Shown: positions 878 to 37,699 of the stretch, one piece after another
How the letters are laid out: each line of letters begins with the position of its first letter
How positions within the stretch are numbered: the stretch's first letter is position 1
Source: a virus
Length of the DNA: 37,699 nt
IMG/VR virus record: IMGVR_UViG_3300026519_000029
Span: 1-37,699 of that record
Reading direction: 5' to 3' (one strand)
Program-made: the position numbers and the translations under genes
The notes under the pieces: generated by a model
What the model was told of the DNA's origin: nothing
The model's database searches: none
What the model saw: only the letters and a program-made list of their open reading frames with translations

Positions 878-906
878 TTGACAAAGGTCTACAGGAGTTG
901 TAGAAT
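878..906 (+). promoter_or_regulatory. strong sigma70-type promoter for the leader RNA / early operon
   Basis: TTGACA (878-883), a spacer of exactly 17 nt, then TAGAAT (901-906). The -35 context GGTTTGACAAAG is identical to that of the late promoter on the other strand (37061-37066). No coding frame starts directly downstream; the first product is the structured RNA at about 913-1105. Confidence 0.88.
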
Positions 907-912
907 AGTCAC

Positions 913-1105
913 ATGTTGCATTAACACTGAGCCACCAAGATGGGGACTTCCCTGCTCGTCTCGCGATAAGCGAAGGACAAGGGGCCTGCCTAAAGGTGAC
1001 AACTCTACATAATGTCGTACGGGACGATTCTCGGAATGTCACTGGCGAAGCCGTGGCGACGGTAAACTGCCCGTATACGCAGGAAACCCCTCCTAAGGGG
1101 GTTTT
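913..1105 (+). ncRNA. structured non-coding leader RNA, unknown class
   Basis: This stretch lies between a strong promoter and an intrinsic terminator, has no plausible reading frame and is full of pairable segments. Visible helices: TGTT/AACA (914-926); CACC near 932 with GGTG near 995, closing a domain that contains TCGC-GATAA-GCGA (961-973) and CCC/GGG; TACGGG (1018-1023) with CCCGTA (1070-1075); GGC-GAA-GCC near 1044; and ACGG with CCGT inside GCG/CGC (about 1056-1080). I could not match it to a known riboswitch, group I intron core or other ribozyme. It may be a stable small RNA, an antitermination leader (as the put RNAs of phage HK022 are known to be) or an attenuator. The roles are inference; the pairing and flanking signals are visible. 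Confidence 0.6.
1084..1105 (+). terminator. intrinsic terminator/attenuator after leader RNA
   Basis: AAACCCC (1084-1090) pairs with GGGG (1098-1101) plus U1102-1104, with loop UCCUAAG. Only four T residues follow (1102-1105), so termination is probably incomplete and may act as attenuation. The T residues are also part of the 5' strand of hammerhead stem III, so the two folds compete. Confidence 0.7.
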
Positions 1106-1166
1106 GTCATATAGGGTAGAGCAGCCCTACTGATGAGGCCTGGTGCTGGCTGAAATGAAACGAAAT
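1102..1166 (+). ncRNA. type III hammerhead ribozyme
   Basis: All core elements are present in order. AUA (1109-1111) is a valid NUH cleavage triplet. Stem I is UAGGG (1112-1116) with CCCUA (1125-1129), closed by an 8-nt loop. CUGAUGA is at 1130-1136. Stem II is GGCC (1137-1140) with GGCU (1148-1151). GAAA is at 1152-1155. Stem III starts with A1109-U1156, C1108-G1157 and U1107-A1158; after an AA bulge it can continue G1106-C1161 to about U1102-A1165. Stem III is open, which makes it type III. Predicted cleavage is between 1111 and 1112. It lies directly 5' of the gene at 1181, whose AAAGGAG ribosome-binding site begins at 1168. Confidence 0.85.
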
Positions 1167-1180
1167 GAAAGGAGCTAACG

Positions 1181-1420
1181 GTGAAGACTTTCTATTACGG
1201 TACGTATACTATTGACCGGAAAGGTGTGATAAGGCGAAAGACTCGAGCCCAAGGTACTAGTGCTGGTCGCGTACTGAAGCCTTATACTAGTAACCCTGAC
1301 AAAGCGGGGAGCAACCAAGCAAGATATGTAAGCTTATGCCGCGGTGCTGGGAAGTGTAAAGTGTTTAACTATGACCGACTCGTTATCCGATTCGGTTGCC
1401 ATCAGAGACTGGAGACGTAG
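1181..1420 (+). CDS. small basic protein, weak NUMOD4/HNH-associated resemblance
   Basis: 79 residues, GTG start with AAAGGAG six bases upstream. The pattern Y-x-I-D-x-x-G-V near residues 9-17, then GRVLKP, then YVSLCRGAGK and a late RLVIRFG loosely resembles the NUMOD4 modules at the N-terminus of phage HNH homing endonucleases. No His-Asn-His nuclease motif follows, so it would be a module alone or a remnant. The protein is rich in Lys and Arg and probably binds nucleic acid. It is the first gene after the hammerhead ribozyme, so its mRNA 5' end may be made by ribozyme cleavage. The family call is weak; the start and ribosome-binding site are clear. Confidence 0.65.
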   Translation: MKTFYYGTYTIDRKGVIRRKTRAQGTSAGRVLKPYTSNPDKAGSNQARYVSLCRGAGKCKVFNYDRLVIRFGCHQRLET

Positions 1421-37066: not shown

Positions 37067-37126
37067 ACCGGCAAAATAGTTTACTTAGGTTTTCCCAGCA
37101 GAACCGGGTGACTTATTCTACAAAAA

Positions 37127-37222
37127 AATCCTCATAAGGAGAGGCTTTTGAGGTGTGAAATCCTCATAAGGAGAGGCTTTTGGGGTGTGAAATCCTCATA
37201 AGGAGAGGCTTTTGGGGAAGAA
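37127..37222 (+). repeat. three 32-bp tandem repeats upstream of the late promoter
   Basis: Units start at 37127, 37159 and 37191; the first 24 bases are identical in all three (AATCCTCATAAGGAGAGGC then TTTTG). Each carries the small inverted repeat CCTC-N7-GAGG. The 32-bp period is about three helical turns, so copies face the same side of DNA. They lie 60 bp behind the late -35 box and could bind an activator or be origin iterons. Confidence 0.85.
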
Positions 37223-37624: not shown

Positions 37625-37659
37625 GGGTCTCGGTGCCTAGGTCATTGACATCGAGACCC
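37625..37659 (+). promoter_or_regulatory. inverted repeat over the right-end promoter
   Basis: GGGTCTCG (37625-37632) and CGAGACCC (37652-37659) are perfect complements 19 bases apart. The second arm lies in the spacer of the promoter at 37645-37673, so it may be an operator; as RNA it would be a hairpin without a clear T tract. Confidence 0.6.
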
Positions 37660-37673
37660 CTTTGTCTTATTAT
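37645..37673 (+). promoter_or_regulatory. sigma70-type promoter reading off the right edge
   Basis: TTGACA (37645-37650), a 17-nt spacer and TATTAT (37668-37673). Transcription would start near 37680 and leave the window at 37699. If the ends join, it would drive the Cys-rich gene that enters at position 2. Confidence 0.75.
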
Positions 37674-37699
37674 AGGAGTGTTGCTTGTGTTGTATTCCT

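Follow-up and report, generated by a model that had tools for sequence, protein, structure and literature searches.

The DNA analysed here is the virus record IMGVR_UViG_3300026519_000029, positions 1 to 37,699, and this whole stretch of 37,699 bases is referred to as the window. Its genes include those for an exonuclease, a DNA polymerase, a helicase, the large terminase, the portal and the tape measure. The locus in question lies 5' of the replication genes, where a good sigma-70-like promoter is followed by an untranslated leader, a stable hairpin, a type III hammerhead ribozyme core, a Shine-Dalgarno (SD)-like sequence and a small ORF (Table 1). Judged from the sequence, transcripts from this promoter likely start near 913-916. 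For the ORF of 79 aa neither a PHROGs match nor any relatives were found.

Table 1. Features of the ribozyme locus (positions of the window)
Feature	Position	Strand	Basis or remark
Sigma-70-like promoter, TTGACA-17-TAGAAT	878-906	+	11 of 12 consensus positions; consensus match only
Untranslated leader	912-1082	+	No credible ORF
Stable hairpin GAAACCCCU-CCUAA-GGGGGUUUU, proposed 3'-end cap	1083-1105	+	-12.0 kcal/mol; 3' end 6 nt before the cut
Type III hammerhead ribozyme core	1107-1158	+	Fold placement, chance estimate, covariance model
Predicted cleavage site AUA^U, after A1111	1111-1112	+	H17 = A1111 in the hammerhead fold; inferred
AGCA of loop I, proposed partner of UGCU in loop II (1144-1147)	1120-1123	+	Sequence complement
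Core CUGAUGA	1130-1136	+	Sequence
Core GAAA (G12 to A15.1)	1152-1155	+	Sequence
SD-like AAAGGAG	1167-1173	+	7 nt upstream of GTG 1181
ORF, 79 aa, GTG start	1181-1420	+	Start 22 nt past the ribozyme core

The stretch from the promoter to the hairpin (912-1084) was considered as a structured RNA or riboswitch and rejected as such, as it gave no noteworthy Rfam match and folded no better than its shuffles (z=-0.27). A coding function was rejected as well, since only short, implausible ORFs are present. No conserved structure was detected in this leader, which cleavage by the ribozyme would free as an RNA. Several further features were noted elsewhere in the window. Positions 1-252 hold the 3' part of a reading frame truncated by the contig end, which encodes CxxC-type repeats (DCFDCVDC...), and an 18-base tandem repeat at 596-775 within a 158-aa ORF (331-807) encodes a lysine-alanine tail of the form (KKKAAT)n. 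Near the right end of the contig, three near-identical, hairpin-forming tandem copies of AAATCCTCATAAGGAGAGGCTTTTGGGG are found at 37120-37220, and a promoter-like TTGACA-17-TATTAT at 37646-37674 reads off this end.

The sequence-only reading had described a hammerhead of type III, complete and placed ahead of a gene, with its cut at 1111/1112. Here, sequence reading together with fold placement recovered every element that had been claimed, and the predicted cut is the same, with A1111 as H17. The observation at 1102-1166 is real, a complete type III hammerhead core. The required parts, CUGANGA, GAAA and the pair U16.1-A15.1 (U1110-A1155), are present and are surrounded by stems of 6, 4 and 4 bp, of which stems I and II are closed by loops and stem III is open. 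Stem I (1112-1117/1124-1129, UAGGGU/GCCCUA) ends in a U.G pair and carries loop I (1118-1123, AGAGCA), while stem II (1137-1140/1148-1151, GGCC/GGCU) carries loop II (1141-1147, UGGUGCU). In stem III, U1107, C1108, A1109 and U1110 face A1155, U1156, G1157 and A1158, which amounts to 4 bp if U16.1-A15.1 is counted. It is followed by an AA bulge (1159-1160) and a possible distal extension (1102-1106/1161-1165, UUUUG/CGAAA). Both this extension and the hairpin at 1083-1105 use U1102-1105 and are mutually exclusive. The cleavage triplet AUA (1109-1111) conforms to the NUH rule. The pair 10.1-11.1 is G.U, in contrast to the strongly conserved, although not strictly required, G10.1-C11.1.

Loops I and II of the window ribozyme are complementary over four letters (Table 1). 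Among other phage type III hammerheads, complementarity of at least 4 letters between these loops is over-represented (4 of 26 versus 0.86 expected, p=0.006). The usual arrangement there is UGCU in loop I and AGCA in loop II, so that the two tetranucleotides have changed places in the window, each at the corresponding 3' end of its loop. Such a loop pseudoknot is used by ~40% of hammerheads and speeds up cleavage (PMC3088659).

A chance match to the hammerhead pattern is very improbable. By chance, 1.2e-4 type III cores whose stems reach 5, 4 and 4 bp or more are expected per window on both strands, and none occurred in 11.3 Mb of Markov sequence. Since about 1e-4 is expected per window, some chance matches have to be anticipated when very many windows are scanned. 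However, an own covariance model, built from 21 other, independent type III hammerheads, placed its best match in the whole window at 1106-1159 with 30.9 bits (E=2.1e-6), the next match reaching 13.5 bits (E=0.14), and the geometry of hairpin and SD seen here is present at 0.14% of window positions. Rfam RF00008 gave 23.3 bits (E=0.0094 over 321 bases), which is below the gathering cut-off of 48.5. This cut-off is a detection threshold and not a defining feature of a hammerhead. Applied to nine loci holding many hammerheads, it called one and missed nearly all clear phage type III examples, and it was discarded as an uninformative membership test for this group. Covariation on one alignment (A1), the rows of which had been chosen for pairing, was also set aside. 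A search for other hammerheads of any permutation in the window found none, leaving a single copy.

Type III hammerheads matching the GUC pattern are numerous in IMG/VR (at least as many as the matches listed), which indicates that phage hammerheads are common. Among the matches listed, most type III examples have a stable hairpin directly before them and many an SD sequence and start codon directly after. This was quantified after removal of redundancy by scoring hairpins of -8 kcal/mol or better within 36 nt upstream of stem III. In a first IMG/VR set, again among the matches listed, 75% of 59 non-redundant type III hammerheads carry such a hairpin, compared to 26-27% of random and gene-start-matched controls and 31% at a second matched position (p about 1e-12 to 1e-15). 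Counted by contig cluster, it is present in 24 of 33 (binomial p=6e-8). Type I hammerheads of the same set have it in 27%, as the controls do. The difference was found again in GTDB genomes, with 58% against 18% (p=6e-6), and once more in a second IMG/VR set, where 60% of type III hammerheads stand against 11-15% of controls (p about 1e-16) and type I reaches 17%. Over the three data sets the hairpin is therefore found in 58-75% of type III hammerheads and 11-31% of controls, while 25-40% of type III hammerheads lack it.

The position of the hairpin is likewise restricted. Mostly, 3-9 nt separate its 3' end from the cut, with a median of 6 nt in all three sets and a mode of 6 nt in GTDB and in the second IMG/VR set. 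The gap of 6 nt in the window is therefore the commonest one at other type III hammerheads. On the other side, an SD-start is found within 30 nt of 43% of the type III hammerheads in set 2 (4% at random positions), and a looser rule gave 44% versus 5% in set 1. For this analysis, a hairpin-capped phage ribozyme module was defined by a hairpin of -8 kcal/mol or better 3-9 nt before the cut, an SD-start within 30 nt of the ribozyme and no U tract. The window copy agrees with this layout in its hairpin (-12.0 kcal/mol, at 6 nt) and in its SD-start (22 nt after the ribozyme). In the comparators, a stop codon lies at a median of 37 nt upstream of the cut, meaning that the upstream product is an mRNA in most of them. 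Unlike these, the upstream product in the window is an untranslated leader, which counts against the assignment.

Some loci stand out by their sequence. Near-identical cap hairpins GUGUCUUCAAAGACAC precede hammerheads at many sites on many contigs (11 loci listed). On contigs of the candidate phyla Nomurabacteria and Taylorbacteria, GAGGAAGCAGAGCCUC, a hairpin and a type III hammerhead are followed soon by GUUCUUU, and no SD is present. GUUCUUU is also located 3' of hammerheads at three further loci.

The hairpin at 1083-1105 can be read in two ways. It could be an intrinsic terminator next to an independent ribozyme, so that most transcripts stop at 1105 and the read-through RNA alone is cut; this reading is distinctly unlikely. 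In its favor, the stem is GC-rich and followed by UUUU, and a pattern scan lists it as terminator-like; there are 5 T in GTTTTGTC. This UUUU is, however, located within the stem; the full stem is followed by GUCAUA, with 3 T in the next 8 nt, and the GC part is followed only by GUUUUGUC, whereas a clear terminator of the same phage near 836-860 runs into T8. Furthermore, the scan found 13 terminator-like sites, against 9.6 expected by chance, and this count is inside the chance range. Hairpins in the same position in other phages do not have a U tract; at other type III hammerheads they are followed by a mean of 2.1-2.8 T in 8 nt, which is the background T content and shows that these hairpins are not terminators. 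Because comparable hairpins are found at other type III hammerheads without a U tract, the hairpin in the window is more likely a 3'-end cap belonging to the module than a terminator. The 'post-terminator' position assigned to the ribozyme by the sequence-only reading is thus not retained. Its preference for mRNA processing over a relic still appears the better reading, because the compensating A16.2-U15.2 pair, which the AUA triplet needs, has been kept and because the surroundings match the recurrent layout of phage ribozymes.

Nevertheless, the window copy has weak points, and some of them speak for a ribozyme that was once active but has decayed or become slow, weakened by G.U 10.1-11.1 and by AUA and left with little function. 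Both letters are rare. Among type I and III hammerheads that had not been selected by search patterns, 10.1-11.1 is G-C in 168 of 170 and G.U in one (0 of 74 type III, 1 of 96 type I), and AUA is absent from the 74 type III examples. A search directed at AUA yielded 6 type III hammerheads, five with AUA and one with GUA, of which one has an upstream hairpin, and this counts against reading the window copy as a processing site. The copy is also alone in its genome, and a nearest-neighbour model favors a competing fold by 2.6-2.8 kcal/mol. Since the folding balance is equal or worse in 22% of other phage type III hammerheads, this competing fold is a handicap and not an exclusion. Similarly, a U10.1-U11.1 mismatch has been reported to be active (PMC3088659), which suggests that G.U at this position lowers the expected rate and not the membership. 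Decay is further opposed by the retention of all catalytic core residues together with A16.2-U15.2, of the loop-loop complement, of the hairpin at 6 nt and of the SD. Neither DNA comparison nor the neighboring proteins led to close relatives, and conservation of the element is thus unsupported by relatives. Overall, a decayed ribozyme is unlikely, and the ribozyme of the window is, judged by its letters, probably active, perhaps slow.

More distant relatives carry hammerheads of another type. None was found in stretches from 60 contigs with related DNA polymerases, and the type III model gave only weak matches on whole records of such relatives. A pattern search detected type I hammerheads in 5 of 50 phage records whose DNA polymerases are related (about 30-37% identity). 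A single contig stretch has as many as three of them, and several lie shortly before an SD-start. Ribozymes thus recur within this wide group in another permutation, probably by separate gain.

The permutation determines what the cut leaves behind. Cleavage of types I and II leaves an upstream product that is closed by the ribozyme's own stem III hairpin, and the type III product stops in the 5' strand of stem III, which is bare. Over the final 40 nt of this product, a structure of -8 kcal/mol or better is present in 93%, 100% and 78% of types I, II and III, respectively, compared to about one third in random controls (types I and III). The additional hairpin is present only where the fold provides none. 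On this basis, a ribozyme of another class that cuts near its 5' end, twister-P1, is predicted to carry one. Five twister matches were obtained initially, with a hairpin at three of the four located on one 139-kb contig. The prediction was then tested in a fresh scan, in which 65% of 72 non-redundant twister-P1 ribozymes have the hairpin, compared to 22-24% of matched controls (p about 1e-11 to 1e-13); by contig cluster these are 28 of 40. The gap between hairpin and cut, which we take to be at U^A of UAAUGC, has a mode of 5 nt, and an SD-start follows within 40 nt in 35 of 72 (8.5% in controls). A few kb of the 139-kb phage contig (IMGVR_UViG_3300006139_000003, 92406-97742) hold at least two type I hammerheads besides four twister-P1-like ribozymes, and the hairpin abuts P1 in three of the four twisters.

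Based on these data, the type III hammerhead of the window, with its proposed loop I-loop II pairing, is probably the cutting part of a co-transcriptional RNA-processing ("cut-and-cap") site. Transcription from 878-906 would proceed through the hairpin and the ribozyme into the 79-aa gene, and the ribozyme would cut after A1111. The upstream product, an untranslated RNA of ~200 nt (about 913-1111), would then end 6 nt past the hairpin with a 2',3'-cyclic phosphate. A tail this short behind a hairpin is gripped poorly by most 3'-5' exonucleases. The downstream mRNA would carry a 5'-OH at its first nucleotide, 1112, and would open with the hairpin of stem I, behind which lie the SD and GTG 1181. 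In this manner, a protected 3' end would be made without stopping transcription, and the fates of leader and mRNA would be separated. Cleavage by the window copy, protection of this end and a benefit to the phage are what we infer from this arrangement.

Alternatively, the hairpin might be a folding aid, which stacks on or insulates the open helix and speeds up folding without protecting a 3' end. The hairpin often abuts stem III as well as P1 of twister, which makes coaxial stacking possible, and in the window it sequesters GGUUUU, which would otherwise pair with UGAUGAGGCC and hide the core. Yet an open helix behind upstream sequence is equally a feature of type I hammerheads, which have no added hairpin, the frequency of hairpins there being that of the controls in both sets (27% and 17%). 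This argues against a pure folding-aid role; the hairpin tracks the bare side of the cut and not the open helix. A stacking test comparing the hairpin gap with the length of stem III gave no correlation (rho 0.12, p 0.36), although this measure is blurred by the inclusion of stem III letters in the fold. A mere folding aid is considered unlikely. Returning to the cut-and-cap site, a wider proposal, which could prove right as readily as wrong, is that unrelated phage ribozymes are the cutting half of one device. Here, the cut would fall a few nt behind a hairpin that is either borrowed from the ribozyme (hammerhead types I and II) or added upstream (type III and twister-P1), and mRNA 3' ends would be protected without termination. 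The window copy would be one such device, freeing a leader of ~200 nt.

What hammerheads and twisters do in prokaryotes and phages has been called unknown (PMC6155905, PMC10085705). That ribozymes of two unrelated classes have a hairpin 5-6 nt ahead of their cut, and that it is absent where the ribozyme ends in its own hairpin, offers a concrete and cheap test of this question. If the proposal is true, it would also provide a ready-made part for dividing operons into stable mRNAs in bacteria. An account of an upstream hairpin at such ribozymes was not found in the open-access literature, to which the search extended (subscription papers and preprints being outside its scope), and a recurrent processing site composed of hairpin and ribozyme appears to be undescribed.

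Several known systems resemble the window in part. Hammerheads of phages and prophages, including type III, and their loop pseudoknots have already been published, together with the suggestion that they process long phage RNAs into mRNAs (Perreault et al. 2011, PMC3088659). These hammerheads share with the window copy the core, the order and lengths of the stems (stem I exceeding stem II by two pairs), loops I and II with the potential for Watson-Crick pairing and the intercistronic phage context. The window differs from them by AUA, by G.U at 10.1-11.1 and by the letters of loops I and II, which are swapped relative to the common UGCU-AGCA; the cap hairpin 6 nt from the cut is unmentioned in that paper. 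Theta (HDV-like) ribozymes next to phage tRNAs are similar in that their cut sets the 3' end of a structured RNA located just upstream (PMC10879173), and their position at tRNA 3' ends agrees with the idea of a common device, although the upstream RNA is a tRNA and the ribozyme belongs to another class. Twister-P1 (RF03160) in phage contigs shares the cut near the 5' end, the hairpin a few nt before it and the SD-start soon after; it has a different catalytic fold and is absent from the window. The proposed site would work like the RNase III sites in the early mRNA of phage T7, where cleavage between cistrons, without termination, leaves the upstream mRNA with a hairpin at its 3' end. In T7 the cut is made by a protein of the host, whereas the RNA of the window would cut itself.
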